Positions 15,051 through 39,808 of a DNA stretch of 64,000 nt are shown piece by piece (within the stretch, counting starts at the first letter, position 1; each line of letters begins with the position of its first letter). This DNA comes from Devosia beringensis. GTDB taxonomy: Bacteria; Pseudomonadota; Alphaproteobacteria; Rhizobiales; Devosiaceae. The stretch is taken from the NCBI RefSeq assembly GCF_014926585.1, contig NZ_CP045422.1, positions 620,001-684,000 of the forward strand, in the 5' to 3' direction. The translations under genes and the position numbers were made by a program. The notes below the pieces were generated by a model. It did no database searches. It worked only from the letters and a program-made list of their open reading frames with translations, and was not told where the DNA came from.

Positions 15051-16985
15051 ATGTGGATCGTGATGAACCAGATTATTTTCGCTCCGGCCGAAACGGTGGG
15101 TGCCGCCACGGCGCCGGTGCCGCTCGTGCTGCTGGGCGGCACGGCCTGCGACGACAGATTGTTCGCGCCGCTGCTGGAGCGGTTGGGCTGGCCACTGACG
15201 CAGGTGATGGCGCTGGAGGGGGCAGCGACAGCGCCGGCCCTGGCCGCGCACCTGCTGGCGCAGGCGCCGCCGCGCTTTGCCCTGCTGGGCTTTTCGCTGG
15301 GTGGCATCGTGGCGCTGGAAATGATCGCCCAGGCGCCCGAGCGGATTGCCGGGCTGGCGCTCATCGGCACGACCCCCCTGCCCGATCCGGCCGACAATGC
15401 CGGCCAGCGCCGCGCTGCGGTGGCAACTGCCCGTGCCGATGGGATGGACAGCTTTATTGTCGACAGCTGGGACAAACTGGTGTCCCCCGCCCATGCTGAC
15501 AATGCCGCGCTGCGCGCCCTGATCACCGCCATGGCGGCCGACACCGGCGTCGACCTGCTCGCTGCGCAGATAGAAGTCGCCATTCACCGGGCCGATAGCC
15601 GGCCCCGATTGTCTGCCATCGCCGTGCCCACGCTGATCCTGGCCGGGGCCGACGAGGCGGTGTGCCCGCTGTCGGCGCACCAGGAACTGGCCGACGGCAT
15701 TGCCGGAGCGCGCTACTTTACCATTCCACAAGCGGGCCACTTTGCGCCGCTTGAAAATCCTGCCAGCGTGGCGCGTCATGTACGCGACTGGCTGGCCCTG
15801 TGCACGACCGATCCAGCCATTCCGGCAGAACCTCAAGGAGCCATCATGAACGACGCCCCCAACCCAACCAAGAGCAAGGGCAGTCCCGCCATGGCGGCCG
15901 CGGAATCCGTGCTGCAGGTCGAACGCCGTGACTACAAGGATCTGGCGCCGACAGACCGGCCGCGCAGCCAGTCGCTGGACGGCTTCGACGACATCTATAC
16001 CGACATCGTCGATTACATCATCCGCTGCACCCACAAGATCTGGGACGAGCGCGATATCGGGCTGATCTATACCCATTACACGCATAACTGCGTGCTCTAT
16101 GGCACGACCGGCAATATCTACAATCGCGAAGATATCGTGCGCGACACGATCCAGCGGCTGGTGAGCTTTCCCGAACGGCGCGGCATGGGCACCCAGGTGA
16201 TCTGGAATGGCAATGATCAGGACGGCTTCTATACCAGTCATCTGGTGACCGGTTCGGGCCGCCACACCCAATATGGCCATCTCGGCCAGCCCACCGGCAA
16301 GCCCTTTGTCAGCCGCACGATTGCCGACTGCATGATCCACCGCAACATGATCTATCGCGAGTGGGTGGTGTCGGACCAGATGGCCATCATCAAGCAACTC
16401 GGCCTCGACCCCAACCACTTTGCCATGCGCACCGCCAAGGCCAAGTTCGATGCCGGCCTGACCTCGCTGGATATTGGCGAAAACCGCCGTGTCCTTGGCC
16501 AGACACGACCGACCGAGAAAGCCGATGTGAGCCTGGCGCATAACGATATCGAGGCGCAGACCATCGAGATGCTGCACGAGATTTTCGTCAAGCGCATGTT
16601 CGGCAAGATTGCCGAATGCTATGCGCCCAATGCGCAGTATCACGGCCCGCTGATGAAGGAGCTCTACGGCGTTGCCGCCATCATCCACCAGCATCTGGGG
16701 CTGATCGGCTCGCTGCCCGACGCCAGCTACGAGATCCAGCATGTCGCCTCCAATCCCTGCGAAGAGGGCGGCACCAAGGTGGCCGTGCGCTGGATCATGG
16801 AAGGCCACCATCTGGGCTATGGCATTCTGGGCGAATTGGGCGACCCGACCGGCAAGCGCGTGCAGGTGATGGGCATGAGCCATTATCACTGGAAGGACGG
16901 CAAGGTCGTTGACGAGTGGAATGTCTATGACGAGCTGAGCCTGCTCGTGCAGATCAAGCTGGGCCAGTTGGCCGAAGCCGCCTGA
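15051..16985 (+). CDS. Alpha/beta hydrolase joined in frame to a double SnoaL/NTF2-like protein
   Basis: One open frame of 644 codons. Residues 1-260 are an alpha/beta hydrolase with nucleophile Ser82 (GFSLGG) and the late histidine in QAGHFAPLEN. From the internal ATG at 15846 (379 residues) come two SnoaL/NTF2-type cone folds, about 15950-16420 and 16540-16960, of the kind used by isomerases, cyclases and hydratases. No stop codon separates the two parts, yet AAGGAG at 15835-15840 sits 5 bp before that ATG, exactly as for a separate gene. Products may be one fusion protein, two proteins, or both. The 5' start is uncertain (15051 or 15063). A terminator follows. Confidence 0.75.
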   Translation: MWIVMNQIIFAPAETVGAATAPVPLVLLGGTACDDRLFAPLLERLGWPLTQVMALEGAATAPALAAHLLAQAPPRFALLGFSLGGIVALEMIAQAPERIAGLALIGTTPLPDPADNAGQRRAAVATARADGMDSFIVDSWDKLVSPAHADNAALRALITAMAADTGVDLLAAQIEVAIHRADSRPRLSAIAVPTLILAGADEAVCPLSAHQELADGIAGARYFTIPQAGHFAPLENPASVARHVRDWLALCTTDPAIPAEPQGAIMNDAPNPTKSKGSPAMAAAESVLQVERRDYKDLAPTDRPRSQSLDGFDDIYTDIVDYIIRCTHKIWDERDIGLIYTHYTHNCVLYGTTGNIYNREDIVRDTIQRLVSFPERRGMGTQVIWNGNDQDGFYTSHLVTGSGRHTQYGHLGQPTGKPFVSRTIADCMIHRNMIYREWVVSDQMAIIKQLGLDPNHFAMRTAKAKFDAGLTSLDIGENRRVLGQTRPTEKADVSLAHNDIEAQTIEMLHEIFVKRMFGKIAECYAPNAQYHGPLMKELYGVAAIIHQHLGLIGSLPDASYEIQHVASNPCEEGGTKVAVRWIMEGHHLGYGILGELGDPTGKRVQVMGMSHYHWKDGKVVDEWNVYDELSLLVQIKLGQLAEAA

Positions 16986-17005
16986 TCGAGTCCGACGAAG
17001 CGATC

Positions 17006-17044
17006 GGCCGAGCCCCGTCGAGACGACGCGGCTCGGCCTTTTTT
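17006..17044 (+). terminator. Rho-independent terminator after the hydrolase-SnoaL gene
   Basis: Stem arms GGCCGAGCC (17006-17014) and GGCTCGGCC (17030-17038), with further pairing inside the loop, followed by six T residues. It closes the catabolic region and separates it from the trehalose genes. Confidence 0.85.
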
Positions 17045-17146
17045 CGACACGGTCCCGGCGCCGCCCTGCTGCGCCGGAAAGCTTTGTCCATCGGGCGGAA
17101 CGCCCATGGTGACTGTCACGTTAGCCCTGCAACAAGAGGGCAAAGC

Positions 17147-18868
17147 ATGACACATCACTGGGGCGCCGTTCCCCATGACGACGGCACCTGGTCAGTCGCG
17201 ACCTGGGCGCCATCCGCCAAGGCCGTGACCGTCGAGCTCAAAGGCGGCAAGCAGGCCATGGTGCCCGATGGCGATGGATGGTGGTACGCGCGCGTCGGCG
17301 CGTCGCCCGGCACGTCCTATCAGTTCATCTCCGACGGCCAGACCATGCCGGATCCGGCCAGCCGGCTGCAGGCGGGCGGCGTACATGCTCAATCGGTGCT
17401 GGTCGACCACCGGACCTATCCATGGCGCTCGAGCTGGCAGGGACGTCCCTGGCCCGAGGCGGTGATCTACGAATTGCATGTCGGCACCTTTACGCCGGAA
17501 GGCACCTTTGCTGCGGCCATGGACAGACTGGACGAACTGGCGGATCTGGGGATTACCGCTATCGAGGTGATGCCGGTCGGCCAATGGTCGGGCAAGCGCG
17601 GCTGGGGCTATGACGGCGTCCTGCCCTATGCGCCCCACCCCGCCTATGGCACGCCGGACGCGTTCAAGGCCTTTGTCGACCACGCACATGGTCTGGGCAT
17701 GATGGTGATCCTGGACATTGTCATGAACCATTTCGGGTCCGAAGGCGCTCATCTGCACAGCCTGGCGCCGGAATTCTTCGCGCCCGAGCGCCATACGCCC
17801 TGGGGGGCGGCCATCCATTTCGACCTGCCGGCGGTGCGCGAATTCTGGATCGCCTGCGCCAGCATGTGGATTGCCGATTACCGGCTGGACGGGCTGCGCT
17901 TTGACGCGGTGCACGAAATCACCGGCCCGGGAGCCGACGACTTCCTGGCCGAGATGGCGACCCGGCTACGGGCGCTGGACCCGGCGCGCCGCATTCACCT
18001 GATCACCGAGGATGATCGCAATAGTCCGCGCTGGCGCGAGGACGGGCTTTATGATGCCAGCTGGAACGACGATTTCCACCACGCTATCCATACCGCGCTG
18101 ACCGGCGAAGACCACGACTACTATGCCAGCTATGCGGTGGACCCGATCGGCGACCTGTGCCGCGCGCTGGCGCATGGCCAGGTCGAGGAAGGGCAGGAGC
18201 GCCAGGGACGCGATGGGCCGCGCGGGGAAAAAAGCGATCACCTGCAGCCAACCGCCTTCGTCAACGCCATCCAGACGCATGACCAGATCGGCAATCGTCC
18301 GCATGGCGAGCGGCTGATCACGCTGGCCGATGCAAAGGCTGTGGAAGTCGCCTATGCCATGCTGCTTGTGGCCCCCTATGTGCCGATGATCGTGATGGGC
18401 GAGGAGCGGGGCGAACAGGCGCCGTTCCTGTTCTTTGCCGATTTTCACGGGGAGTTGGCCGACAATGTCCGCGAGGGACGGGCCGCGGAGATCGGCGCGA
18501 TTGCCGCGGCCGAGGAACCACCCCCCGATCCGCTGGCCGTGGACACCTTTGCCGCCTCCAAGCTGACCTGGAAAACCGATGCGGCAGCGCAAAGCTGGCT
18601 GGCGCTGACACGGCAAGCCCTGGCCTTCCGCCGGGACTATGTCGTGCCGCTGCTGAAATCGGGGCGGGTCGGCGCGGCGCAGGCTCGCCGGATCGGCGGC
18701 AGTGCCATTGAGGCGAACTGGCGGTTTGCTGCTGGCTCGCTGCATCTGGCGGTCAATTTCGGCACTGTCGGCGCCTTCCCTCCGGGGGCGCAAGAGCCCC
18801 AGTTCACGCTCAACCGTATCGAGAGAGACAATTTTGCGCTCTCCGTCCAAGGCCATTTCCATGATTGA
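17147..18868 (+). CDS. treZ: Maltooligosyltrehalose trehalohydrolase
   Basis: A 573-residue GH13 enzyme that releases trehalose from the maltooligosyltrehalose made by TreY. An N-terminal carbohydrate-binding-like domain (about residues 1-95) precedes the barrel. The nucleophile is Asp253 in LRFDAVHEI and the acid is Glu288 in LITEDDR; a conserved histidine-aspartate pair lies in QTHDQIGN. The start was set at the ATG after AAGAGGG. The stop overlaps the treY start by 8 bp. I see no treX/glgX or treS in the window. Confidence 0.93.
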   Translation: MTHHWGAVPHDDGTWSVATWAPSAKAVTVELKGGKQAMVPDGDGWWYARVGASPGTSYQFISDGQTMPDPASRLQAGGVHAQSVLVDHRTYPWRSSWQGRPWPEAVIYELHVGTFTPEGTFAAAMDRLDELADLGITAIEVMPVGQWSGKRGWGYDGVLPYAPHPAYGTPDAFKAFVDHAHGLGMMVILDIVMNHFGSEGAHLHSLAPEFFAPERHTPWGAAIHFDLPAVREFWIACASMWIADYRLDGLRFDAVHEITGPGADDFLAEMATRLRALDPARRIHLITEDDRNSPRWREDGLYDASWNDDFHHAIHTALTGEDHDYYASYAVDPIGDLCRALAHGQVEEGQERQGRDGPRGEKSDHLQPTAFVNAIQTHDQIGNRPHGERLITLADAKAVEVAYAMLLVAPYVPMIVMGEERGEQAPFLFFADFHGELADNVREGRAAEIGAIAAAEEPPPDPLAVDTFAASKLTWKTDAAAQSWLALTRQALAFRRDYVVPLLKSGRVGAAQARRIGGSAIEANWRFAAGSLHLAVNFGTVGAFPPGAQEPQFTLNRIERDNFALSVQGHFHD

Positions 18869-21116
18869 TCCGATCCCGACCGCGACCTACCGCATCCAGC
18901 TGCGCGAGGGCGTCGGCTTTGCCGAGGTTGCCGCGCAGCTCGACTACTTTGCCGCGTTGGGGATTTCCCACCTCTACCTGTCGCCGATCTTTGCTGCGGC
19001 AGCCGGCTCCACGCATGGCTATGACGTGATTGATCCGACCGCCATCGAACCAAGCCTGGGCGGCCGCGCCGGGTTCGAGGCGCTGGCCGCTGCAGCGCAT
19101 GAGAAGGGGTTGGGCGTGATCCTCGACATCGTGCCCAACCACACGGCGTTCACGCTGGACAATCCCTGGCTGGCCGACGTGCTGGCGCATGGCGAGGAGA
19201 GCCGCTATGGTCGGCATTTCGATATCGACTGGGCAGCGGGACTGCTGGCCCTGCCCTTCCTGCCAGAACCCTTTGCCGCAATGCTGGCGGCCGGGGCGTT
19301 TTCTGCATCGGACGGCTTTTGGCGCGTCGGCGAGATGGAAATCCCGCTGGCAGCCGACGGACGCCAGGGCGCGAGCACCGTCGATGACCTGCAGGCGCTG
19401 CACAAGCGGCAGCACTGGCGGTTGCGGCACTGGGAGACCGAGCGCGACAGCATTACCCATCGGCGGTTTTTCAACGTCACCGGGCTGATCGGCATGCGGG
19501 TGGAAGACGAGGCGGTGTTCGCCGACACGCATAGCCTGATCCTCGAGCTGGTCCGCGCTGGCCATGTCGACGGGCTGCGGGTGGACCATATTGACGGGCT
19601 GGCCGACCCAAGGACCTATCTCGAGCGGCTGGCCGCCGCGCTGCCGGGGACGCCGGTCTGGGTCGAGAAAATCCTGGTCGGGCGCGAGACACTGCCTTCG
19701 GGCTGGCAGACGGCCGGCACCACCGGCTACGAGGCCGGACGACTGCTGGCGCGGGTGCTGACCGATAAAGATGGGCGGGCGCGGCTGGAGCAGAGTTGGC
19801 GGGCCTATACCGGCCAGGCCGGCGACTTTGCCGATGTGCTGACGCAGGCCAAACTGGATATCCTCCATAATGAGCTGGCGGCCGAACTGCATCAGCTGGT
19901 CCGACTGGGCGCGGCGGCACTGGCCGACGATGGGACGGTCGAACCGGGGCCGGAAAGCCTGCGCGATGCGGTGACGGCGCTGCTGACCGGGATGACGCGC
20001 TACCGCACCTATGTGGATGGCGACGGCGCCGATGCGCAGGACCGCGCGCTGATCGACGACATCGTGGAAGCCGCGCGGCCAGGACTGCGCTCCGCGCGGG
20101 TGCTGGAGCATCTGGCGGCCAGGCTGGTGACGCCGGCATCGGCGGCGGCCTTGGCCTTTGCCGTGCGTTTCCAGCAGGTGTCGGGGGCGCTCTTGGCCAA
20201 GGCACAGGAGGACACCGCCGGGTTCCGCTGGACGGCCTATCTGGCGGGCAATGATGTCGGCGCCGAGCCGGCCGAGGCGACGATCGAGGCGGATGAAGTC
20301 AATGCCTTCCTGGCGCAGCGCCGCCCGTCGGACATGACGCTGAGCACCAGCCACGACACCAAGCGCTCCGAAGACGCAAGGATGCGGCTGGCGGCGATCA
20401 GCCACTTGCCGGACGAGTTTGCCGGACTGGTGGAAGCGGCCGGCATGCTGCCGGAAGCAGCAGACGTATCGCCGCGCTGGCGCTGGTATATTGCCCAGTC
20501 GGCCCTGGCCATCTGGGGAGCCGAACCCGAGGCGCTACAGGAACGGCTGGCGGCGCATATCGTCAAGGCGATGCGCGAGGCCAAGGAGGTCACATACTGG
20601 ACCCGGCCGGTGGCCGCGATCGAGGATCCGGCGATCGCTTTTGCCGCGGCGCTGAGCGCGCAGTGGATCGAGACCAGGCCGGCGGCGCTGGCGCGGCTGC
20701 TCGAGACCGGCGACGCCCTCAGCCTGACGCAGCTGACGCTCAAATGCCTGATGCCGGGCTTTCCCGACATCTATCGCGGCTGTGAGGCGCCTTATTACAC
20801 GTTAACCGACCCCGACAGCCGGCTGCCGGTGGACTGGGATGGGTTGCACGGGGCAGCAGAAGCGGAGGGTTTTGTCGGCGACAAGGCGCGGCTGACGCAG
20901 ACATTGCTGGGGCTGCGGGCAGAGGAGCGGGCGTTCTTCGACACTGCCGATGCGCGGATGACGCTGGAGGATGACGGGCTGAGCCTGGTGCGGACAATGG
21001 GCTCACGAACGCTTATCTGCACGCAGAGCGCCGGGCCGCATGCGCCGCTCAGCCAGACCGTGTGGCAGAGCCAGTATGGCGGGCGCCGGCTGACCATTGG
21101 CTGGCAGAACGGCTAG
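18861..21116 (+). CDS. treY: Maltooligosyltrehalose synthase
   Basis: A 751-residue GH13 enzyme that turns the reducing-end alpha-1,4 link of a glucan into alpha-1,1, yielding the TreZ substrate. It begins with the typical TATYRIQL and FAALGISHLYLSPI of this family. The nucleophile is Asp242 in LRVDHIDGL, and WVEKIL carries the acid. LSTSHDTKRSEDAR holds the third catalytic aspartate, and the family PDIYRGCE motif is near the C terminus. It overlaps treZ by 8 bp and ends 4 bp into the convergent kdpE. Confidence 0.94.
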   Translation: MIDPIPTATYRIQLREGVGFAEVAAQLDYFAALGISHLYLSPIFAAAAGSTHGYDVIDPTAIEPSLGGRAGFEALAAAAHEKGLGVILDIVPNHTAFTLDNPWLADVLAHGEESRYGRHFDIDWAAGLLALPFLPEPFAAMLAAGAFSASDGFWRVGEMEIPLAADGRQGASTVDDLQALHKRQHWRLRHWETERDSITHRRFFNVTGLIGMRVEDEAVFADTHSLILELVRAGHVDGLRVDHIDGLADPRTYLERLAAALPGTPVWVEKILVGRETLPSGWQTAGTTGYEAGRLLARVLTDKDGRARLEQSWRAYTGQAGDFADVLTQAKLDILHNELAAELHQLVRLGAAALADDGTVEPGPESLRDAVTALLTGMTRYRTYVDGDGADAQDRALIDDIVEAARPGLRSARVLEHLAARLVTPASAAALAFAVRFQQVSGALLAKAQEDTAGFRWTAYLAGNDVGAEPAEATIEADEVNAFLAQRRPSDMTLSTSHDTKRSEDARMRLAAISHLPDEFAGLVEAAGMLPEAADVSPRWRWYIAQSALAIWGAEPEALQERLAAHIVKAMREAKEVTYWTRPVAAIEDPAIAFAAALSAQWIETRPAALARLLETGDALSLTQLTLKCLMPGFPDIYRGCEAPYYTLTDPDSRLPVDWDGLHGAAEAEGFVGDKARLTQTLLGLRAEERAFFDTADARMTLEDDGLSLVRTMGSRTLICTQSAGPHAPLSQTVWQSQYGGRRLTIGWQNG

Positions 21117-21799
21117 GACGCTGTCGCGACCAGCCGATAGCCGACCCCGGCCTCGTTCTCGATGAGGCGGGGTTCGGCATTGTCCGAGAGCTTGGCGCGC
21201 AGCTGGGCGACGAGGACGCGCAGATATTGCGTGTCCTGGGCATGGGCAGGGCCCCAGAGGCGCTGCAGTGCCATGCCATGAGTAACGACGCGGCCGGCGT
21301 GATCGGCGAGCAGGACGAGCAGGTCGTATTCCTTGGGGGTAAGGTGCACGGGATCGTCGCCCACACGTACGAGTCTAAGCTGCCGATCGAGGGTCACCCG
21401 ACCGAAGTGCTGCGGACCCGGGGGCGCGTCGCCAGGCTCGGCGTGGCGCAAAGCCACGCGGATACGAGCCAGCAGCTCGCCGATGCCGAAGGGCTTTTCG
21501 ATATAGTCATTGGCGCCGGCATCGAGGGCGGCGATCTTTTCGATTTCCTGATCGCGGGCGGACAGGACGATAATGGGGACCGACGAGAAGGCGCGCACGG
21601 CGAGGATGACATCCTTGCCGTCGCCATCGGGCAGGCCCAGATCGAGCACGATCAGCGCCGGCGCGCGCGTCGCGGCCATCCGCCTGGCCATGGCGGCGGT
21701 GTCGGCGGTTTCGACATCGAAATCGCTGGCTTCGAGCGCCGGCCGCAGGAAGCGCTGGATCTGTGGCTCGTCATCAACGACGAGGATACGCGGCTTCAT
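21113..21799 (-). CDS. kdpE: KDP operon response regulator KdpE
   Basis: A 228-residue OmpR-type response regulator. The receiver domain has the acidic pocket VVDDE, phospho-acceptor Asp53 in VLDLGLPDG, and the conserved late lysine in EKPF. The C-terminal winged helix (about 130-225) contains LTPKEYDLL. It would be phosphorylated by KdpD and activate the kdp operon. Its ATG overlaps the kdpD stop (ATGA), and its last 4 bp overlap treY on the other strand. Confidence 0.94.
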   Translation of the reverse strand: MKPRILVVDDEPQIQRFLRPALEASDFDVETADTAAMARRMAATRAPALIVLDLGLPDGDGKDVILAVRAFSSVPIIVLSARDQEIEKIAALDAGANDYIEKPFGIGELLARIRVALRHAEPGDAPPGPQHFGRVTLDRQLRLVRVGDDPVHLTPKEYDLLVLLADHAGRVVTHGMALQRLWGPAHAQDTQYLRVLVAQLRAKLSDNAEPRLIENEAGVGYRLVATAS

Positions 21800-24453
21800 G
21801 GCGCGGCCGGCCCGGCCAGCGGCAGGCGGATGACAAAGCGGGTGCCGCGCCGACGCATGGCCGGGCTTTCCGCGGTGATGGTGCCGCCCATGGCGGTGAG
21901 CAGGCCGCGGGCAATGGCCAGGCCCAGACCGGTGCCGGCCTGGCGGCCATCGCCCTTGGCGCGGCGGTAGAACTTGTCGAAGATGCGCTCCAGGTCGGCC
22001 GCAGCAATGCCCTTGCCCTGATCGGTTACCGTGATCATCACACTGTCTTTCTCTGCGCGCGCATAGATCGTGAGCGGGCTGTCGCCGGCATATTTGGCAG
22101 CATTGTCGAGGAGATTAAAGAGCACCTGTTCGAGCAGGACCGGGTCGGCGCTGGCGACGGGGGTCGGATCGGCGAGGCTGACCTCAACCTCCAGGCCGGG
22201 ATGGGGTCGCCGTGCCCGGCCGACCGCCGCGGCAATGACATCGGCTACGATAGTGGGCTGGCGTTTCGCCCGGATCATGCCGGATTGGATGCGGGTCATT
22301 TCGAAGAGATTGGCAACGAAGCGGTTGAGGCGGCCGGCCTCCTCCTCGATCGAGAGCAGGAGATCGGCCCTGGTGGCGGCGGGCATGCGCTCGCCCAGTT
22401 CGCGCAGGCTGGTGACCGCGCCGGTAATGCTGGCCAAGGGCGTGCGCAGATCGTGCGACAGCGAAGACAGCAGCGCCGCCTGGACCTTTTCGCTTTCCCG
22501 GGCAATGGAGGCCGCATTGCTCTCACGCGCTAGCTGGGCGCGGTCGAGGGCAATGGCGGATTGTTCCAGAATGGCGTTGAGGGTGCGCTGTTCCTCATCG
22601 CTTTCGGGTCCATTGGCCGCTTGCATGGCCAGACCCACCACGGCGAGCACGCGCTGGCCCGAGCGGACCGGATGAAACAGATAGGGCACCTGGGGCAGCG
22701 TGCCGGTCATGAAGCCGGCCGGCTCGCGCTTGTCGCGGGCCCAGAGCGCCGCCATCATCGCGGTGGCGTCGAGATCCTGATCGGGCGGCCAGGCAGCGGC
22801 CAGTGCAAGCTCGCCCGCCTCGTCAGCGGCCAGGACCACGGTGGGCGAGCCCAGCGCAGCGTGGATGTGGCTGGCCATGGCATCAAGCACCTGGTCGCGG
22901 CCGAAGGCGCCAGCCATCTTGCGGGCGAAATCGAGCAAAGCCTGGGCCTGGCTGGTCTGCTGCCGGGCGCGGTCGATGCTCAGCCGCAGGCGGGCAGCGA
23001 GCTGGCCGGCGGCCAGAGCAACGCCGACAAAGATCACCAGCGACAGCACCTCTTCGGGCCGGGCAATGGTCAGCCGCCCGGTGGGGGTGATGAAGAAGAA
23101 ATTATAGGCCAGGAAGGACAGGACCGAGGCCAGCAGGGCCGAAAAACGCCCAGCCACCACCGCCGATAGCAGCACGGCGGCCAGGTAGAGCATGGAGAGG
23201 TTCTGCAGCGCCACGATGGCCGACAGGCCAAAGCCGAGCAGCGTGGTGGCGCCCACCGCCAGCACGGGCGTGGCGACGACCAGTGCCCATTCGGGGGCGG
23301 TGCGGCGGCGCGAAGCGGCATTCCGCTCGGCCCGCTGGCCAGCAACGATATGGATGCCGATATCGCCAGCCTGATGCAGCAGGGCATCGGGAAGGGAACG
23401 CTGCCAGAAATGGCGGCGCCGGCTGCGGCCGATGACGATCTGGGTGATGTTTTCGCGCCGCGCCAGCCTGAGGATAGCGGCGACGAAGTCGGTCGCGGAT
23501 TCGCGCCGCGTCTCGGCGCCGAGCCGTTCGGCCAGCTGGAGCGTGGTTTCGAGGCGGGCGCCGGCCTCGGCATCGGGTGGCATTCCATGCGGATTGGCGA
23601 GCGAGAGCACCAGCCAGCGGGCATTAAGCCCGGAGGCGAGGCGGCTGGCCTGCCGCACCACGCTGTCGGACATGTCGTCGGGACCGACGCAGACCAGCAG
23701 GCGCTCGCCGCTGGCCCAGGGCCCCTCGATGGCGCCCTGGCGCAGCAGATCGACCATCTGGTCATCGACCCGGTCGGCGGCACGGCGCAGCGATAGCTCG
23801 CGCAAGGCGGTGAGGGTGGCCGGGGTGAAGAAGCCGGCCAGGGCGCGGTCGGCATTGTCGGGCAGATAGACCTTGCCGGCCCGCAGGCGTTCAATCAGCT
23901 CGTCGGGTGGCAGATCGACCAGCACGATATCGTCGGCCGTCTTGAGCACCACGTCCGGCACCGTCTCACGCACCGGCACGCCGGCAATGCGGGCGACGAG
24001 GTCGGAGAGGCTTTCGAGGTGCTGGATATTGAGCGCGGTCCAGACATTGATGCCGGCAGCGGTCAGCTCGGCAATGTCCTGGTGGCGCTTGGGATGGCGC
24101 GAACCGGGCGGATTGGAATGGGCCAGCTCGTCGACGATGAGCAATTGCGGACGGCGCTGCAGCGCCGCATCGAGGTCAAAGCCGCCATATGCCCCTGCCC
24201 CGTCACGGCGCGGCAGGATCTCAAGACCGTCGGCCAGCGCGGCGGTCTCATCCCGGCCATGGGTTTCGACGAGGCCGATGACGACATCGACGCCCTTGGC
24301 CTGGAGCGCGCGGGCGCGCTCCAGCATGGCATAGGTCTTGCCGACGCCGGGGGCCATGCCCAGGAAGATGGTGAGCTTGCCGCGCCCTTCGCGGGCGGCA
24401 AGCTGCAGCAGCGCGACGGGATCGGGGCGGAGCGGGTCGGCGGCGCGCTGCAT
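21796..24453 (-). CDS. kdpD: Osmosensitive potassium channel histidine kinase KdpD
   Basis: An 885-residue sensor kinase. The N-terminal KdpD domain carries the Walker A GMAPGVGKT (residues 32-40), then a universal-stress-like domain, four closely spaced membrane helices in the middle, a GAF-like region, and the kinase core with His667 in SLSHDLRTPL and the ATP-binding N, G1 and G2 boxes (FNLLDNAAKYA, DQGKGI, GTGLGLAIA). The ATG at 24453 is 2 bp past the kdpC stop. Longer frames would overlap kdpC. Confidence 0.94.
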   Translation of the reverse strand: MQRAADPLRPDPVALLQLAAREGRGKLTIFLGMAPGVGKTYAMLERARALQAKGVDVVIGLVETHGRDETAALADGLEILPRRDGAGAYGGFDLDAALQRRPQLLIVDELAHSNPPGSRHPKRHQDIAELTAAGINVWTALNIQHLESLSDLVARIAGVPVRETVPDVVLKTADDIVLVDLPPDELIERLRAGKVYLPDNADRALAGFFTPATLTALRELSLRRAADRVDDQMVDLLRQGAIEGPWASGERLLVCVGPDDMSDSVVRQASRLASGLNARWLVLSLANPHGMPPDAEAGARLETTLQLAERLGAETRRESATDFVAAILRLARRENITQIVIGRSRRRHFWQRSLPDALLHQAGDIGIHIVAGQRAERNAASRRRTAPEWALVVATPVLAVGATTLLGFGLSAIVALQNLSMLYLAAVLLSAVVAGRFSALLASVLSFLAYNFFFITPTGRLTIARPEEVLSLVIFVGVALAAGQLAARLRLSIDRARQQTSQAQALLDFARKMAGAFGRDQVLDAMASHIHAALGSPTVVLAADEAGELALAAAWPPDQDLDATAMMAALWARDKREPAGFMTGTLPQVPYLFHPVRSGQRVLAVVGLAMQAANGPESDEEQRTLNAILEQSAIALDRAQLARESNAASIARESEKVQAALLSSLSHDLRTPLASITGAVTSLRELGERMPAATRADLLLSIEEEAGRLNRFVANLFEMTRIQSGMIRAKRQPTIVADVIAAAVGRARRPHPGLEVEVSLADPTPVASADPVLLEQVLFNLLDNAAKYAGDSPLTIYARAEKDSVMITVTDQGKGIAAADLERIFDKFYRRAKGDGRQAGTGLGLAIARGLLTAMGGTITAESPAMRRRGTRFVIRLPLAGPAAP

Positions 24454-24454
24454 G

Positions 24455-25021
24455 TTACCTCGCCAAGGGCGCCTGCTGATCGAGGGCCAGATTGAGCGCC
24501 AGGACATTGACGCGCGGTTCGCCGAATATAGCCAAGATCGGCAGCGCCGTCTTGTCTGCCAGCAGCGCTTCGAGCGTGGCCAGCGGCACGCCGCGGGCGG
24601 CAGCAATACGGGGCAGTTGCTGGCGGGCATTGGCCGGGGAGATATCGGGATCAAGCCCCGAGGCCGAGGTGGTGGCGGCGTCAGCCGGCAGCGGCGCACC
24701 GCCCAGGCTGGCCACGGTGTCGTCGACGCGCGCCACGAGACGGGCATCGGTGGCGCCAAGATTGGAGCCGCTGGAGGCCGCGGCATTATAGGGCGCGGGG
24801 CCGGTGGCGGAGGGCCGCGGCCAGAAATAGCCGGGCTGGGTGAAGTCCTGGCCGATCAAAGCCGAGCCGATGATGATGCCGTCGCGATCGAGGCGACTGC
24901 CATTGGCTTGGGCGGGGAAGGCCAACTGGCCGAAGCCGGTGATGGCGAGGGGATAGACGAGGCCGGTCAGCAGGGTGAAGAGGACGGTCATGACGATGGC
25001 CGGGCGGATTTGGTTGAGCAT
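24455..25021 (-). CDS. kdpC: Potassium-transporting ATPase subunit C
   Basis: A 188-residue subunit that helps ATP binding in the Kdp pump. It has a single N-terminal membrane helix, the family motif YPLAITG, and the segments FWPRPSA and SGSNLG that are diagnostic of KdpC. The C-terminal RVNVLALNLAL is also typical. It lies 9 bp after kdpB and 1 bp before kdpD. Confidence 0.95.
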   Translation of the reverse strand: MLNQIRPAIVMTVLFTLLTGLVYPLAITGFGQLAFPAQANGSRLDRDGIIIGSALIGQDFTQPGYFWPRPSATGPAPYNAAASSGSNLGATDARLVARVDDTVASLGGAPLPADAATTSASGLDPDISPANARQQLPRIAAARGVPLATLEALLADKTALPILAIFGEPRVNVLALNLALDQQAPLAR

Positions 25022-25030
25022 GATCGGTTC

Positions 25031-27088
<2,058 letters not shown>

Positions 27089-27099
27089 GAAATGGGGTC

Positions 27100-28809
27100 C
27101 TAAAAGCTCTGGCCGGACAGCATGGCAAAATGCTCGACGATGGGCCCGAGAGCGAGAGCGGGGAAAAATTGCAGCCCGCCCATGATGAGGATGATGCCGA
27201 TCAGCAGGCCGACAAAGAGCGGGCGATCGGTGGGGAAGGTGCCGGCGGAGGCCGGCAGGCGCGGCTTGGCAGCCAGCGCGCCGGCAATGGCCAGCACCGG
27301 CACGATATAGGCGAAGCGCCCGAGCAGCATGGCGATGGCCAGGGTGGTATTGTACCAGGGCGTATTGGCCGAGAGGCCGCCAAAGGCCGAGCCGTTATTG
27401 CCGGCGGCCGAGCTATAGGCATAGAGGATTTCGCTGAGGCCATGCGGGCCGGGCGTGGTGACGGCGCTGATGCCGAAGGGCAGGATGGCCGAGACAGAGG
27501 TAAAGCCCAGGATGACCAAAGGCAGGATGAGCACGGCCAGCATGGCCAGCTTCATTTCGCGCGCCTCGATCTTCTTGCCGAGGAATTCGGGCGTGCGCCC
27601 CACCATGAGGCCGGCGACGAAGACGGCGAGAATGGCAAAGACCAGCATGCCGTAAAGCCCCGAGCCGACGCCGCCGGGCAGAACTTCGCCCAGCTGGATC
27701 AGGAACATGGGCACGAGGCCGCCTAGCGGGGTCAGCGAGGAATGCATGGCGTTGACGCCGCCGTCGGACAGGCCGGTGGTGACGGCGGCATAGAGCGCGG
27801 TCATGGCCTGGCCGAAGCGGACCTCCTTGCCCTCCATATTGCCGAGCGCCGGATCAAGGCCCGCTGCGTGCAGCAGCGGATTGCCGGCGGTTTCGGCCCA
27901 GTAGACGGCGCCGGTGCCGACCAGCAGCAGGGTGACGGTGACCGCGATCAGCGCCCAGCCCTGGCGTCGATTGCCGACCAGCTGGCCGAAGGCATAGACC
28001 AGGGCCGTCGAGATGGAGAGCATGGCGATGATATTGAGATAATTGGCAAAGGCGTTGGGGTTCTCAAAGGGATGGGCGGCGTTGACGTTGAAGAAGCCGC
28101 CGCCATTGGTGCCCAACTGCTTGATGGCTTCCTGGCTGGCCACCGGGCCGATGGCGATGGTCTGCTGGGCGCCTTCGAGCGTGGTGGCGGCAAAGCTGGG
28201 ATCGAGGGTCTGCGGCAGGCCCAAGGCGATGAAGGCCACGGCGACGACGATGGCCAGCGGCAGCAGCACATAGAGCGTGGCGCGGGTCATATCGACCCAG
28301 AAATTGCCGATCGCCGTAGCGCCCGAGCGCATGAAGGCGCGGGTGACGGCGATGGCCACGGCCATGCCGGTGGCGGCAGAGAGGAAGTTCTGCACCGTCA
28401 GGCCCGCCATCTGGCTGAGATGGCTCATGGTGGTTTCGCCGGCATAGTTCTGCCAGTTGGTATTGGTGACAAAGCTGACGGCGGTATTGAAGGCCAGATC
28501 GGGCGCAAGGCCGGCAAAGCCCTGCGGGTTGAGCGGCAAAAAGCCCTGCAGGCGCAGCAGGGCAAAGAGCGCGAGAAAGCCGGCAAGGCTGAAGGCGAGC
28601 ACGCCAAAGGCATAGGCTAGCCAACCCTGTTCGTGGTCCTGGCGAATGCCAGCGAGGCGATAGAAGCCGGATTCGAGGGGGCGCAGGACGGGCGAGAGGA
28701 AGGTGCGTTCCCCGGCAAAGACGTGGGCCATGTAGAGCCCGAGCGGCTTGGCGAGCAGCAGGACTGAGAACAGCACGAGGCCGATCTGCAGCCATCCGAT
28801 AATAGTCAT
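27100..28809 (-). CDS. kdpA: Potassium-transporting ATPase potassium-binding subunit
   Basis: A 569-residue channel-like subunit with about ten membrane helices and the four selectivity-filter-like repeats of the superfamily of K+ transporters, for example [19 protein letters not shown] and AAGNNGSAF. It selects and passes potassium. It is preceded by kdpF, 13 bp upstream. Confidence 0.96.
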
Positions 28810-34508: not shown

Positions 34509-37121
34509 TTAGGGCGTAGCGCTCTCCGGCAGGGCATAAGCGATGAAGTAGTCGCCTATGGGGGTCTCCATGAAGTCATGCCCGCCGGCATTGATGACGA
34601 CGATCTGGCGACCCTCGGCCTCATAGGTCATCGGCGTCGCCTGGCCGCCGGCTGGCAGCACGACACTCCAGACTTCCTCGCCCGTCTCGATATCGACGGC
34701 GCGCAGGATGTCGTCGGTTGCGGCAGCGATAAAGAACAGGCCCGAGGCGGTAACAAAGCCGCCGCCATTATTGGGCGTGCCGATATCGATGGGCAGCATG
34801 GAGGGGATGCCAAAAGGACCATTCTTGCGGGCCGAACCGAAGGGGCGGTCCCACAGCACTTCACGGGTTTCCAGATCGATCGCCGCGATTCCGCCATAGG
34901 GTGGCTGCTTGCACAGCAGGCCGGTGAAGGGCACGCGCCAGCCCGCATTCACCCGGATACCATAGGGCGTCAGAGCCTGCGGGCTCAGGCTACCATGCGA
35001 GCCACCACCGGCATCGGCGTCATAGCTCGGGTCGGTGATCGGCACGACGCCTAGTGCATCGACTTCCTCACGGGGTACCAACTGGTTGTAGTTGGGCATA
35101 TTGTTATAGTTGGTGATCATGATGTTGTTCACCGGATCGACCGCAACGCCACCCCAGTCCACGCCGCCATTATAGCCAGGGAACTGGATCCAGGGCTGAT
35201 CGACGGTGGGCGGGGTGTAGACGCCGTCATAGCTGGCCTGACGGAACTGGATGCGGCACCAGAGCTGGTCGAGCGGCGTCATGCCCCACATGCTGGCCTC
35301 GGTGAGGTTTGGCTTGAGCAGATTGGGGAAGTCGGTGACATAGGGCTGGGTCGGCGACAGGCGCTCGGGCTCGACGCCACCCTGGGGGGCGGGACGGTCC
35401 TCGATATTGACGAGCGGCTCGCCGGTTTCGCGGTTGAGAATATAGAACTGCGCCTGCTTGGAGGGCATGATGATGGCCGGAACCGGGCCGTCAGCGGTGG
35501 GGAAGTCCACCAAAGTGCCCTGCCCGCCGAGATCGTAATCCCAGACGTCGTAATGCACGGTCTGATAGCTCCAGGCGACTTCACCGGTTTCGACGTCGAG
35601 CGCGACGATGGCGGTTGAATAGGTGTTTTCGGCCTCGGAGCGATCACCGCCCCAATAGTCGACGGCAGAATTGCCCATGGGCATATAGACCAGGCCCAGT
35701 TCGTCATCACCCGAGGCAATGGTCCACATATTGGGCGTGCCGGGGGTATAGACTTCGCCTTCTGGCGGCAGACCGGTTTCGCCGGGACGGCCCATATCCC
35801 AGGCCCATTCCAGCTCGCCAGTGACGACGTTGTAGCCGCGGATCACGCCCGAGGGCGCTTCGCGGGTCTGCCCATCGCTGACCTGGCTGCCGACGACGAG
35901 GACGTCCCGCACGAGAGTTGGCGGCGAAGTCGGCGCATAAAAGCCGGGCGCGGTATCGCCAATGCCTTCGAGCAGATTGACGGTGCCGACATTGCCGAAG
36001 TCGGCGCAGGGCTGGCCGGTTTCGGTGTCGAGCGCGATCATGCGCGCATCGTGGGTGAGGTTGACGACGCGGGTGGCGCAGAGATCGGTTTCATCGGCCG
36101 CCGGATCGGCAAAATAGATCAGGCCGCGGCAGGAGGCATTGTAGCCAACGGCGTCGACGGGCGTTTCCGGATCATAGGTCCAGAATTCGGCGCCGGTAGC
36201 GGCGTCGAGCGCGCTGATCTTGTTGAGTGCCGAGCACAGATACAGGCGATCGCCCACCTTGATCGGCGTGTTCTGGTTGCCGAAGGGTTCGTCATTCTCT
36301 GGCAGATCGCCGGTGCGGAATTCCCAGATCTGCTCAAGTTCGCCGATATTTTCAGGGGTAATCTGTGCGAGCGGGGAATAGCGCGCGGCGCGGTGAGTGC
36401 CGCCATAGGCGGGCCAATCCACACCGGTTTCGAACTGATTGTCGACAACTTGTTCGGCCACTGACTGTTCGGCTGCAGGCGCGAGATCGCCAGTCGGAGC
36501 AGCGCCCTCTGCGGGCGCATCCGGGGCAGGTGCATCGGTAGGCGGAACCGCGGGCTCAGCCGGCGACAGTGGCGCGGTCGGCGCTGGCGCGGGAGTCTGC
36601 TCAGGGGTGACTGGAGCAGCCGGCGTTTCAACCGGTGCAGGGGTTTCGGTGACCGGTGGCGGCGTCGTTTCCTGCGCCACAAGATTGCCATCGCGCACGG
36701 CGCTCAGGCCCAGCAGGGAGGCGCCCACGGCGACAACTGCGGCGGCCGCTGCGGCCATGGCACGGCGCGGCGCTGCTGTGCGGCCTTTCAATGCCGGGAT
36801 GGTCAGCAGCACTAGAACCAGAATCACGGTCGGCGCGACCAGGCGCGGCACCTGGGCCCAGCCGTCGAGCCCGGCTTCCCACAGTGCCCAGACCAGCGTG
36901 CCGAGATAGGTAACGAGATAAATCCACACGCCGGTCATTTGCTGACGGAACAGGAACCAGGCAGAAGCCAGCAGGCCGAGACCGGCCAGCGCATAGTACC
37001 AGGAGCCGCCCAGCGTGATGAGATAGAGGCCGCCGAGCATTATTGGCAAGCCGAACAGCACCATCACGACAGCCAGCGCCACCGTCCCCCAATAACCGAA
37101 TGAGTGACTGGGATTGGACAT
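34509..37121 (-). CDS. gcd: Membrane-bound PQQ-dependent glucose dehydrogenase
   Basis: An 870-residue quinoprotein. Five membrane helices (about residues 10-150) anchor it and deliver electrons to ubiquinone. A Pro/Ala/Glu/Thr-rich linker of about 75 residues (roughly 155-230) leads to the periplasmic eight-blade PQQ propeller, which begins DWPAYGGTHRAARYSPLAQI. Typical Gcd stretches include GFYAPTSPPT, VHYDVWDYDLGGQ and the late AGGHDF. It oxidises glucose to gluconolactone. The start is the ATG just before the first helix. No pqq genes are in the window. The linker is much longer than in the E. coli enzyme. Confidence 0.9.
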   Translation of the reverse strand: MSNPSHSFGYWGTVALAVVMVLFGLPIMLGGLYLITLGGSWYYALAGLGLLASAWFLFRQQMTGVWIYLVTYLGTLVWALWEAGLDGWAQVPRLVAPTVILVLVLLTIPALKGRTAAPRRAMAAAAAAVVAVGASLLGLSAVRDGNLVAQETTPPPVTETPAPVETPAAPVTPEQTPAPAPTAPLSPAEPAVPPTDAPAPDAPAEGAAPTGDLAPAAEQSVAEQVVDNQFETGVDWPAYGGTHRAARYSPLAQITPENIGELEQIWEFRTGDLPENDEPFGNQNTPIKVGDRLYLCSALNKISALDAATGAEFWTYDPETPVDAVGYNASCRGLIYFADPAADETDLCATRVVNLTHDARMIALDTETGQPCADFGNVGTVNLLEGIGDTAPGFYAPTSPPTLVRDVLVVGSQVSDGQTREAPSGVIRGYNVVTGELEWAWDMGRPGETGLPPEGEVYTPGTPNMWTIASGDDELGLVYMPMGNSAVDYWGGDRSEAENTYSTAIVALDVETGEVAWSYQTVHYDVWDYDLGGQGTLVDFPTADGPVPAIIMPSKQAQFYILNRETGEPLVNIEDRPAPQGGVEPERLSPTQPYVTDFPNLLKPNLTEASMWGMTPLDQLWCRIQFRQASYDGVYTPPTVDQPWIQFPGYNGGVDWGGVAVDPVNNIMITNYNNMPNYNQLVPREEVDALGVVPITDPSYDADAGGGSHGSLSPQALTPYGIRVNAGWRVPFTGLLCKQPPYGGIAAIDLETREVLWDRPFGSARKNGPFGIPSMLPIDIGTPNNGGGFVTASGLFFIAAATDDILRAVDIETGEEVWSVVLPAGGQATPMTYEAEGRQIVVINAGGHDFMETPIGDYFIAYALPESATP

Positions 37122-37384
37122 GTTGACGCTCCTCAGATTTTTGGCTGACCTTGACCAACGCCACGCGGGGTCGAAGGTTCCGTCCCGGCTGTCCATGATG
37201 TCTTCCGGCCATGACAGAGGCGGCGGCGGCGCGCGGGGCCGACGGACCTCACCACAGGACGTCGGCGCGCACAGGGAACAATCGCCCTGCCCTGTCGTTG
37301 AGACTGGACCGCGGCAGCAGCGCGCGGAGAGCGCAGGACAGGCCCCTATGTTGCCAATGTCCATCAATGCAGGAGGAGAGATTA

Positions 37385-37570
37385 ATGGCTGAACTTGACC
37401 AGAACGAGATCCGCGTCGTCGCCCATCAGCTGTGGGAGCGCGACGGTCGCCCCGAGGGAAAGGCCGATGACTACTGGCATGCGGCGGTCAAGCTGCTGTC
37501 TGCTGAGAGCCATGCCGATGAGACGGAAACGCCCGCGCCCATCCTGCCGGTACCGCCGGCGCCGGTCTGA
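37385..37570 (+). CDS. DUF2934 small protein
   Basis: A 61-residue soluble protein with the DUF2934 pattern IRVVAHQLWERDGRPEGKADDYW followed by an acidic, proline-rich tail. A strong AGGAGGAGAG precedes the ATG. It is transcribed away from the glucose dehydrogenase across a 263-bp gap where I see no clear operator. Function is unknown for the family. Confidence 0.8.
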   Translation: MAELDQNEIRVVAHQLWERDGRPEGKADDYWHAAVKLLSAESHADETETPAPILPVPPAPV

Positions 37571-37609
37571 GCTCATAAATGGCGCTTGCCTGGCCAATCC
37601 CAGGGATGG

Positions 37610-39310
37610 TCAGGCAGGCCCATCGGCGGGCAGATTGTAGCGTTCGGCGATCTCGGCGCGCAGTAAAGCCCGGCTGGCCGCGGCTGTGGACGAGCCGGCG
37701 TCCCGGATGGCATCGGCTACCCTGACGAGGGCCTGGTCGCGGATCACGCTGGTGAACCAGCGGCTGACGTCGCCATTGTGCAGATGATGGGTCCATACTT
37801 CGTCTGCCACCGCATCGCCCTTGGACAGGAACTCAAAGAGGTTCCTCGCCTGAACGCAGACCCGGTTGTCCGGTCCGCGAAAATAGAAGCTGCGTTGGTC
37901 GCCCACATCGCCGGTGGCATATTTGCCGGCATGGCGCACATGCGTCTGGAGCGGTGCATGAGGCCGCACCACTACCCCGACAAAATTGCGCCGCCAGACC
38001 AGCATCTCGCCCGGCTCCGGCACGGAAGCGCCGTTCATGGCGGGTGCTTCCAGACCGGCCAGTGAACAAAAGTCCCTGACCATGAATTCAGCGCTCGCCC
38101 CCAGCGCGCAGACCGTGCCGACGCTGGCCAGCACGTCGGCGCTCAGCAGCCGGGGAGAGACGGTGATGAAGATGACGCAGGGCTGCTCGCCAAACTCCAC
38201 CCCGTTCGACACGGCAAAGCCCTGATGGGCCTCGTCAATGATAACAAAGGCCGGTGCGCCCATGTGCTCGCGCCGGGCACTGGCGGCGGCCATGGCATCG
38301 AGCATGAAGTGCCGCCGGACCTCATGCTTCATGCCGCGCAGGACCACGACCGGATTGAGACCGGCGGCCAGCAGGAGCTCGAAATCGGCGACATTGACGG
38401 CAGGATTGCTGGCATCGAGCACGCTGGTGCCGCTGATGGTGTGATAGTCGCCCTCCGGGTCGAGCACGGCCAGGCCGCAGTCATGGGTCAGCATCTGTTC
38501 GATCAGCATGGTGGCAAAGGTCGATTTGCCGATCTGCGACGGGCCGACCACCAGCACATTGCCCTGATGGACCGGCATGCTGATGCGCTTGCCGCTGCGC
38601 GCCGTGCCGATGGCCAGATCGTGTCGCCCGGCGGGCAGCAGGTCGCCGTCGAGCTTGTGCAGGGCTTCGGCCAGAAAGCGCACGCCGGCCCCGTGATCCT
38701 GCCCCAGCACCAGGTCGGCCTCGGCCTTGATGGAAGGCACGGCATTGGCCACCGCCACCGAGCAGCCGCAGATGGCCAGGAAGGAGTGATCGTTCTCGGC
38801 GTCACCCACGCCGACCAGGGCGCTTGGCGACAGGTTGAGGTCACGTGCAGCGGCCCGCAGGCCGCTGGCCTTGTTGATCCCGGTGGGCAGCACCATCAGG
38901 GCGCCCTTGTTGAAGGTGATCTGCAGCTCGAGCCCCGACTGGCGGATGGCATCGAGTACCTTGCCCTGATCGGGTTCCCAGGCGGCGATGATCGCCTGCC
39001 CGACGGACAGGCGCTCCACGCCCAGTCCGCGAAGATGCTGCACCAGGTCCGGATCGGGCGGTGGCGCCAGGACGCGCGTCTGCCCGCTGGCAGGGTCATG
39101 CAGCACGGCACCATTTTCGAGGACCAGACGATCAAACATGCCATAGTCGGGGAAGGTGGTGGCCAGGTCTCCCAGTTCCCGCCCCGTCACCAGGATCAGC
39201 CGCCTGCCGCTGCGCTGCAGCGCCGCCAGGGCGTCCCGCGTGGCGGCTTCGACCTTGCCGTCGGTGGCGATGGTTCCATCAAAGTCAGCGGCCAGCCCCA
39301 GAAAGTACAT
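37610..39310 (-). CDS. HAD-type phosphatase fused to a HerA/DUF87-like ATPase
   Basis: A 566-residue two-part protein. Residues 1 to about 230 are a Cof/sucrose-phosphatase-type HAD hydrolase: Asp9-x-Asp11 in AADFDGT, VTGRE, a lysine in GINKASGL, and GVGDAENDHSF. Residues about 235-566 are a P-loop ATPase with Walker A 256-264 (GPSQIGKST, Lys262) and Walker B Asp359-Glu360 in VIIDEAHQG, similar to the central domain of HerA-like ATPases. The start is the ATG directly before the HAD motif. It stands alone between DUF2934 and tRNA-Gln. The substrate and partner are unknown. Confidence 0.8.
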   Translation of the reverse strand: MYFLGLAADFDGTIATDGKVEAATRDALAALQRSGRRLILVTGRELGDLATTFPDYGMFDRLVLENGAVLHDPASGQTRVLAPPPDPDLVQHLRGLGVERLSVGQAIIAAWEPDQGKVLDAIRQSGLELQITFNKGALMVLPTGINKASGLRAAARDLNLSPSALVGVGDAENDHSFLAICGCSVAVANAVPSIKAEADLVLGQDHGAGVRFLAEALHKLDGDLLPAGRHDLAIGTARSGKRISMPVHQGNVLVVGPSQIGKSTFATMLIEQMLTHDCGLAVLDPEGDYHTISGTSVLDASNPAVNVADFELLLAAGLNPVVVLRGMKHEVRRHFMLDAMAAASARREHMGAPAFVIIDEAHQGFAVSNGVEFGEQPCVIFITVSPRLLSADVLASVGTVCALGASAEFMVRDFCSLAGLEAPAMNGASVPEPGEMLVWRRNFVGVVVRPHAPLQTHVRHAGKYATGDVGDQRSFYFRGPDNRVCVQARNLFEFLSKGDAVADEVWTHHLHNGDVSRWFTSVIRDQALVRVADAIRDAGSSTAAASRALLRAEIAERYNLPADGPA

Positions 39311-39474
39311 GACGTCACCATGCCGGTCTCTCGATGGCGCGCAGCTTGCCGCACAATGGCGCCGGGCTTCTTGACCGAAATCAACGCACTGCCACCCTGG
39401 GCGCGATTTCGCTGCGCTGGCGGCATCTGGCCCGCATGCGCCGGGGTGACGACCGGCGAAACAGCGAAAAAAGC

Positions 39475-39549
39475 TGGCTGGGGCGCTAGGATTCGAACCT
39501 AGGGATGCCGATACCAAAAACCGGTGCCTTACCACTTGGCGACGCCCCA
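39475..39549 (-). tRNA. tRNA-Gln (anticodon TTG)
   Basis: A full cloverleaf on the minus strand: acceptor TGGGGCG/CGCCCCA, D arm GCCAAGTGGTAAGGC, anticodon stem CCGGT/ATCGG with loop TTTTGGT (TTG at positions 34-36), and T arm with GGTTCGAATCC. The discriminator is G and CCA is encoded. Confidence 0.95.
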
Positions 39550-39731
39550 ACTGGCGCGGTTCGTACACGGTTTGCCCCGGGTTCGCAACATGGTCCACGA
39601 GCTCGCAAAAAGCCTTTTGCAGACGCTTGAACGGCGCCGTCAGCGGGTCTATAACGCCCGCCGTCGCGTGTGGCACAGCGGGCTTTGCAGCCCGCTGCCA
39701 GCCAGAACAAGCCCGAGATCGCGACACCTGA

Positions 39732-39808
39732 CGGAGTATAGCGCAGCCTGGTAGCGCACCTGCTTCGGGAGCAGGGGGTCGAGTGTTCGAATCACTCTAC
39801 TCCGACCA
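39732..39808 (+). tRNA. tRNA-Pro (anticodon CGG)
   Basis: A full cloverleaf: acceptor CGGAGTA/TACTCCG, D arm with AGCCTGGTAGCGC, anticodon stem CCTGC/GCAGG with loop TTCGGGA, T arm with TGTTCGAATCA, discriminator A and encoded CCA. The 180 bp between it and the divergent tRNA-Gln holds one 9-bp-arm hairpin (39676-39697) and no gene. Confidence 0.95.

Follow-up and report, generated by a model that had tools for sequence, protein, structure and literature searches.

A fused HAD-type phosphatase, HerA-fold ATPase and OrfY/DUF5752-like protein in Devosia beringensis: a possible nucleotide-switched enzyme of stress metabolism

A single gene of Devosia beringensis encodes a 566-residue protein in which a HAD-IIB phosphatase domain, a HerA-fold ATPase and a helical domain related to OrfY and DUF5752 follow one another in one chain. 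It lies in the window that we analysed, a stretch of 64,000 nucleotides (NZ_CP045422.1, positions 620,001 to 684,000), and a reading-frame check gave 566 codons plus a stop on the minus strand, with an ATG at 39310 (Table 1). A preliminary description of this DNA had proposed that a HAD phosphatase and a HerA-like ATPase are joined in one protein. The fusion is real, its coordinates were right and both folds were matched in our model; the third, C-terminal domain (residues 456-566) had been overlooked. We prefer, tentatively and as a reading somewhat short of an even chance, to see in it a soluble phosphatase of small molecules that is associated with stress, carries its own nucleotide switch, is ATP-gated and acts in compatible-solute metabolism. 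The HAD domain would dephosphorylate a sugar phosphate or a comparable compound from the metabolism of compatible solutes (trehalose or related glycosides), the ATPase would bind and hydrolyse ATP and thereby switch either the phosphatase or the way in which the protein assembles, and the OrfY-like domain would dock the fusion protein to glycoside-synthesising partners. The genomic context of the relatives supports action under general or osmotic stress; the trehalose-type substrate is the weaker step. Because a small-molecule phosphatase is combined here with an ATPase without DNA-motor residues and with a domain related to the neighbours of trehalose genes, an enzyme of stress metabolism is probable, rather than one of defence or of moving DNA.

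Table 1. Features of the fusion gene and of the surrounding DNA, in positions of the window.
Feature	Position	Strand	Basis
CDS, 566 aa, HAD-IIB phosphatase / HerA-fold ATPase / OrfY(DUF5752)-like	37610..39310	(-)	translation, profile and structure matches
HAD-IIB phosphatase domain, residues 1-224	38639..39310	(-)	Hydrolase_3 E 1.8e-24; TIGR01484 above cut-off; 1wr8 Z 27.2
HAD motif I DFDGT, residues 9-13	39272..39286	(-)	D9, D11, T13 invariant in 43
HerA-fold ATPase domain, residues 226-452	37955..38635	(-)	DUF87 E 1e-4; 4d2i Z 21.9; 8xav Z 20.8
Walker A GPSQIGKST, residues 256-264	38519..38545	(-)	G256, S258, G261, K262 invariant in 43
DPEGDY motif, residues 284-289, taken as site of HerA D176	38444..38461	(-)	invariant in 43
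Walker B FVIIDEAH	38225..38248	(-)	D359, E360, H362 invariant in 43
C-terminal OrfY/DUF5752-like helical domain, residues 456-566	37613..37945	(-)	family-level profile and fold matches
tRNA-Gln(ttg), flank only	39475..39549	(-)	
tRNA-Pro(cgg), flank only	39732..39808	(+)	
Membrane-bound PQQ-dependent dehydrogenase, downstream neighbour, separate protein	34509..37220	(-)	TIGR03074 915.9 bits, cut-off 832.65
treZ	16970-18766	(+)	profile score over cut-off
treY	18702-21116	(+)	profile score over cut-off
kdpE-like regulator	21113-21799	(-)	
kdpB	25031-27088	(-)	
kdpA	27100-28809	(-)	

Structure prediction, proposed in the preliminary description as a check, bears out both folds. The AlphaFold2 model of the whole protein, made with 43 homologues as input, had a pLDDT of 89.7 and a pTM of 0.79; within it, residues 2-224 match the archaeal phosphatase PH1421 (1wr8; Z 27.2, rmsd 2.5, 221 residues aligned), the Sulfolobus solfataricus HerA structure 4d2i is matched by residues 227-491 (Z 21.9, rmsd 2.8, 224 aligned), and these matches of predicted domains lie far beyond chance. 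The N-terminal 220 residues match Pfam Hydrolase_3 (E 1.8e-24), and a score of 73.2 bits for a cut-off of 41.8 places the domain in the HAD-SF-IIB family (TIGR01484). The HAD motifs are complete, as had been claimed: DFDGT, VTGR, K147 and GDAEND are all present, and D9, D11, T13, K147, D170 and D174 are invariant both in the 43 aligned homologues and in a 50-row set. We take D9 to be the nucleophile and D11 the acid of HAD motif I. Sequence and model together show a predicted catalytic domain of the HAD-IIB (Cof/phosphoglycolate-phosphatase-like) type that is intact. It has the fold and the catalytic motifs of PH1421 and the other HAD-IIB (Cof-type) phosphatases, but differs from them in standing within a three-domain chain and in scoring below the equivalog cut-offs.

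The nearest NCBIfam equivalogs of this domain are phosphoglycolate phosphatases, with the window copy below their cut-off. The protein might on these grounds be a metabolite-repair phosphatase of the phosphoglycolate type, unrelated to solute synthesis, whose ATPase senses energy status; we judge this fairly unlikely. The phosphoglycolate phosphatase models TIGR01487 and PRK01158 match all 43 aligned proteins, and the best solved structure, PH1421, bears that name in PDB entry 1wr8. However, the window copy reaches 66.8 bits against an equivalog cut-off of 122.75 for TIGR01487, the best score seen (118.4) belongs to a HAD-only copy, and the reading leaves both the OrfY-like domain and the stress promoters described below unexplained. 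Among other activities for the HAD domain, trehalose-6-phosphate phosphatase (OtsB) was considered and dropped, because the E-x-R/K motif of OtsB, which presumably has a role in that enzyme, is missing: compared with four OtsB proteins of DUF5752 loci, the domain has NKGALMVLP instead of E-x-R/K before the motif III Lys, and M139, L141 and P142 are invariant in the 43 homologues.

The ATP site of the second domain appears to be equally well preserved. Walker A and B are intact, as first described, and G256, S258, G261, K262, D284, D359 and E360 are invariant in the 43 homologues; in the 50-row set the same catalytic residues are invariant with the exception of D359, which is kept in at least 90% of the rows. 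Decay of the ATPase half in most relatives, which the preliminary description had named as evidence against its proposal, is not what we see in the aligned relatives, where the catalytic residues are kept. The window's ATPase domain is the most divergent of the 43 (mean identity 0.31 against a median of 0.40) with its catalytic residues kept. It scores just under the Pfam cut-offs for DUF87 (E 1e-4, 22.9 bits for a cut-off of 23.2) and AAA_22 (26.8 bits for 27), and DUF87 matches were found in all eight family members examined. By fold and by Walker A and B it belongs to the HerA/FtsK group, with a second structural match to HerA of an anti-phage complex (8xav; Z 20.8). Sequence and model show what we predict to be an intact HerA-fold ATP site.

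The features that distinguish a motor are another matter. The alignment with HerA begins at HerA residue 118, so that its N-terminal 117 residues, a region that we take to be the HAS-barrel, have no counterpart here. Four key residues of Sulfolobus HerA, K154, D176, E356 and R381, are given in an excerpt of the relevant report (PMC4351679), and the putative equivalents of the first three are invariant in the 43 homologues. An excerpt of a second source (PMC10853773) assigns to the HerA/FtsK clade a sensor-1 Gln and an arginine finger that immediately precedes strand 4. Neither feature is kept in the 43 aligned homologues: the sensor-1 position holds T in 41 and S in two, never Gln, and from Walker B to strand 4 the count of Arg in a single column does not exceed 15 of the 43. 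Distant copies from Chloroflexota and planctomycetes have an S/T-Y-R motif in the sensor/finger region, which suggests that the ancestral form may have been nearer HerA. R332, R459 and R547, conserved elsewhere in the protein, could serve as fingers, and a ring is conceivable. The fusion protein thus shares with HerA (4d2i, 8xav) the ATPase fold, Walker A, DPEGDY and a Walker B with Glu, but differs from it in the missing N-terminal region, finger and sensor and in the attached phosphatase. The balance favours a switch over a DNA pump for the ATPase half, and a signalling or regulatory role is possible.

Two further readings give the ATPase a different task. In one, the protein would be a bifunctional kinase/phosphatase, its P-loop half adding phosphate to the substrate from which the HAD half takes it. 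PNKP and HPr kinase/phosphorylase are analogues of this kind, and a HAD and a P-loop domain in one chain are a known enzyme plan; the loss of motor-specific residues would fit, as would one Chloroflexota locus in which a Usp gene, the fusion gene and an APH-type kinase gene follow one another on the same strand. The fold is nevertheless close to that of HerA (Z 21.9), with DPEGDY and DEAH motifs, and we regard this reading as quite improbable. A HerA-type nucleic-acid motor, possibly anti-phage, with a HAD domain trimming ends or signals, is very improbable: the HerA fold shared with the anti-phage complex, the sparse and scattered distribution, weak PADLOC matches to HerA and single neighbours of that kind (for example Uma2 and 3'-5' exonuclease genes next to the copy in Calothrix) would suit it, but it is opposed by the missing N-terminal part and clade residues and by the finding that, among the families listed (25 of 175), none of nuclease or defence type reaches three members in the set of 121 neighbours. 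PADLOC itself returned only weak P-loop matches, the best to mad8 (E 2.2e-6), and no match to a system-specific model. The defence function once thought conceivable finds no support in this, and on present evidence the fusion protein is not a defence protein.

The preferred reading, a switched phosphatase of stress metabolism, draws in part on the third domain. Since full-length fold matches were mostly to HAD structures, this domain was folded and searched alone. The resulting model (pLDDT 83) matched OrfY of Thermoproteus tenax (4cso) with Z 10.7, rmsd 2.1 and 95 residues aligned, the next entry having Z 4.9; in Foldseek its E value against OrfY was only 0.41. A profile of the domain searched against all PDB sequences found 4cso at E 6e-4, with the next at 0.31, and DUF5752 itself matches 4cso at E 1.2e-34. 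When 40 C-terminal domains were aligned with six DUF5752 (PF19027) proteins, hhalign gave a probability of 95.1% and E 3.3e-8 over 93 columns. Two relatives show a weak match to Pfam DUF5752 (E 0.027 and 5e-4); the C-terminal piece of the window copy alone gave no Pfam match, DUF5752 included, so that the assignment holds by profile homology at family level and not for the window sequence alone. Fourteen DUF5752 matches over the Pfam cut-off were found in 400 Chloroflexota genomes, and six of these are HAD-HerA fusions (L212-L215, L218, L220), three of them 97-98% alike. Profile, PDB and fold matches together argue for three parts and show, at the level of sequence and model, a predicted relationship of the domain to OrfY/DUF5752. 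R459, H460, K463, Y464, F475, N490, L491, H509, W518, R547 and Y558 are invariant within it in the 43 homologues. In our reading of the alignment full-length DUF5752 seems to be made of two repeats, whereas the fusion has about one unit, joined in the same chain to the ATPase and the phosphatase. The domain also occurs by itself, at 105-109 residues, in L221 (4908-5222, plus strand), beside alpha-glucan phosphorylase and GH57 genes, and in L222 (4950-5276, minus strand). A 988-residue protein of L223 (3993-6956, plus strand) has a DUF5752-like stretch between a response-regulator-like stretch, itself just under the cut-off, and a PPDK_N ATP-binding domain.

The relatives of this domain are what connects the fusion to trehalose. 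Full-length DUF5752 proteins adjoin a gene for a TreT-type trehalose synthase in all six cases examined (five from Chloroflexota and one other). Four of the six, all from Chloroflexota (L207, L209, L210, L211), are fused to an MscS-type channel, as assigned by MscS/YnaI matches for L210 and by 38-63% identity to L210 for the other three. OtsB or OtsA-OtsB precedes DUF5752 in four of the five Chloroflexota loci, OtsB standing before three of the four MscS-DUF5752 fusions within the DNA examined and OtsA-OtsB before the remaining Chloroflexota DUF5752 gene. For the msc-gt-tpsp operon of T. tenax, an excerpt of PMC3634074 describes a trehalose-synthase complex in which GT activates trehalose synthase by complex formation. 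By analogy, the loci with MscS-DUF5752, TreT and often OtsB look like a bacterial counterpart of that operon. The fusion protein itself resembles the T. tenax complex only by way of a HAD-type phosphatase, the stress setting and DUF5752 relatives with MscS and TreT; it differs in containing no synthase in its own chain, and its partners are putative.

Around the fusion genes themselves, sugar genes are few. Any of ten trehalose/glycogen-type queries matched in only three of 100 fusion loci, 43 of them from Mesorhizobium (E 1e-15, 40% of query, median 21.7 kb examined), so direct genomic support for a trehalose pathway is thin. TreT had no match in the flanks of these 100 loci at the same thresholds; the DUF5752-beside-TreT arrangement does not recur there. 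Two phosphatase-only genes, L198 and L199, head a cluster of GT4, debranching-enzyme-like (GDE) and GT20 genes, which makes two of the seven phosphatase-only loci with flanks. The Aminobacter fusion adjoins the same three gene types, and genes related to GT4 are found close to the fusions of Caballeronia and Paraburkholderia. The GT4-GDE-GT20 cluster is absent from the five cyanobacterial phosphatase-only loci; of those scanned, three have Competence, peptidase S66/PTPS and Uma2 genes alongside. In the window, treZ-treY lie 16.5 kb from the fusion gene. Given this thin context, the missing OtsB motif and the phosphoglycolate phosphatases as nearest equivalogs, we hold the solute role only with the reserve already expressed and claim no exact substrate.

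The survey of orthologue neighbours that had been suggested earlier found no constant neighbour and a recurrence of stress genes. The Pfam set covered 121 of the 128 nearest neighbours in 36 loci, genes above 950 aa or at a distance beyond 3.5 kb having been dropped and seven more removed for size (which reduced 37 loci to 36). A fixed operon partner was looked for, by clustering the neighbours and by Pfam, and rejected, since no family had more than four members among the 121 (short-chain dehydrogenases 4, Usp 4). Of 48 diverse fusion loci, which come from three phyla and total 832 kb, 12 contain Usp genes, as do none of 15 other loci (187 kb); the Usp profile was built from sequences of five of these 12, and the control set is a small one. 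The window contains no Usp gene. Where the fusion is on a plasmid, genes for CBS, BON, Dps, hemerythrin and catalase proteins have been seen in its vicinity.

Promoters point in the same direction. We searched for the EcfG general-stress promoter, whose consensus we take to be GGAAC-N15-18-CGTT, and found it within 250 bp of the start in 12 of 69 alphaproteobacterial copies, where the make-up of the loci would predict 0.8; relaxing the pattern gave 14 of 69, with 1.8 expected. In 23 alphaproteobacterial-type fusion loci such sites stood before only two of 285 other genes (Fisher p 9e-8, which overstates the case because the strict sites are confined to two genera and are not independent: Sinorhizobium 7/7, Mesorhizobium 5/43, others 0/19). 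The same pattern found no site in the 250 bp before the window copy.

A wider and more doubtful proposal is that a HerA-fold ATPase has given up the pumping of nucleic acid and protein entirely and become the nucleotide-driven switch of a metabolic phosphatase, held by an OrfY-type domain in a bacterial 'trehalosome'-like assembly, and that this would be an undescribed branch of osmotic-stress metabolism in at least six phyla. If true, a HerA-type ATPase has been re-used to regulate small-molecule metabolism, DUF5752 gains a second setting and a testable role, and stress-induced rhizobial genes are linked to archaeal trehalose complexes. If only the ordinary part holds, there is still a widespread three-domain protein of which the plasmid annotations examined name only the phosphatase half. 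In the open-licence literature we found no description of a HAD-HerA fusion, nothing on DUF5752 or on OrfY of T. tenax, and nothing on RpoE2 of S. meliloti with a haloacid dehalogenase; one paper, PMC7159879, was not relevant to the fusion in the excerpt available.

The architecture is conserved but sparse across at least six phyla, and the HAD-HerA combination is no chance or sequencing fusion. Record titles and taxonomy place it in at least alpha-, beta- and gammaproteobacteria, Cyanobacteria, Planctomycetota, Myxococcota and Chloroflexota, and a plasmid title adds an actinomycete. In the GTDB collection the best 80 of 542 confirmed matches were all full length, and 11 of 72,556 plasmid or chromid records carry the fusion (match of at least 80% of the query). 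Phylum surveys at E 1e-30, counting whole or part matches, gave 11 of 398 genomes in the window's phylum, 10 of 246 in the planctomycete phylum and 8 of 292 in the cyanobacterial phylum, the last comprising three whole fusions and five phosphatase parts. Within the window's genus one of 37 genomes has the fusion, and a survey of 61 genomes that included the genus yielded four matches, of which one is a whole fusion from a different family within the order (47% identity) and two are weak part matches. Such scatter is typical of an accessory gene that moves horizontally. The longest terminal branch (1.48) in a tree of 66 rows is that of the window copy. Two diverged fusion copies are found in one genome in G858 (L180, L186) and in Acidisoma sp. 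L85 (L015, L026).

Orthologues split into two genes would, according to the preliminary description, have told against a true fusion. We find half of that. The phosphatase does exist alone, in two genomes of one genus of the same order (one of which also has a whole fusion), in five of the eight matching cyanobacterial genomes and on one Nostoc plasmid. An ATPase with the C-terminal domain but no phosphatase was not seen on plasmids, where all 11 matches are whole fusions. The HAD-only pair L198/L199 is sister to the Aminobacter fusion in the 66-row tree (SH-aLRT 93, inside a clade of 99), and L198 terminates within the linker to the ATPase; HAD-only Nostoc L003 and L188 stand in a clade of 98 with fused cyanobacterial genes. 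The simplest reading is that the ATPase and C-terminal domain were probably lost repeatedly, the short rows weakening the tree. With HAD-only copies nested among fusions and the reverse not seen, the phosphatase looks like the part that is kept.

The gene had also been said to stand alone next to tRNA genes. This is true in the window; it looks like a local accident, as the blocks that meet here are separate in the relatives examined. The fusion gene is the meeting point, in this genome, of the tRNA pair, a PQQ-dehydrogenase block and an IMP/GDPD block. In one congener (G002) the IMP/GDPD block lies about 89 kb from the PQQ-dehydrogenase on one contig, with the tRNA-Gln/tRNA-Pro pair on another. 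None of 11 congeneric IMP-gene loci has a tRNA gene within 1.5 kb on either side, and IMP and PQQ genes are absent from all five tRNA-pair loci examined. The tRNA genes therefore mark a junction and are no evidence of function. The stretch 34509-39808 joins blocks that are apart in congeners, as at a site of rearrangement or insertion next to two tRNA genes.

PQQ-dependent dehydrogenase genes are found near several fusion copies (L005, L007, L034, L054, L062), directly downstream in Caballeronia as in the window, and are common in the window's genus without the fusion. A small ORF sits between the fusion gene and the PQQ dehydrogenase gene. The treZ, treY and kdp genes of Table 1 form an osmotic-stress cluster (16970-28809), again 16.5 kb from the fusion gene. 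An antisense frame of 425 codons (38225-39502, plus strand) overlaps the fusion gene; its tblastn match tracks the fusion gene's own, and it is thus likely a shadow of high G+C coding DNA.
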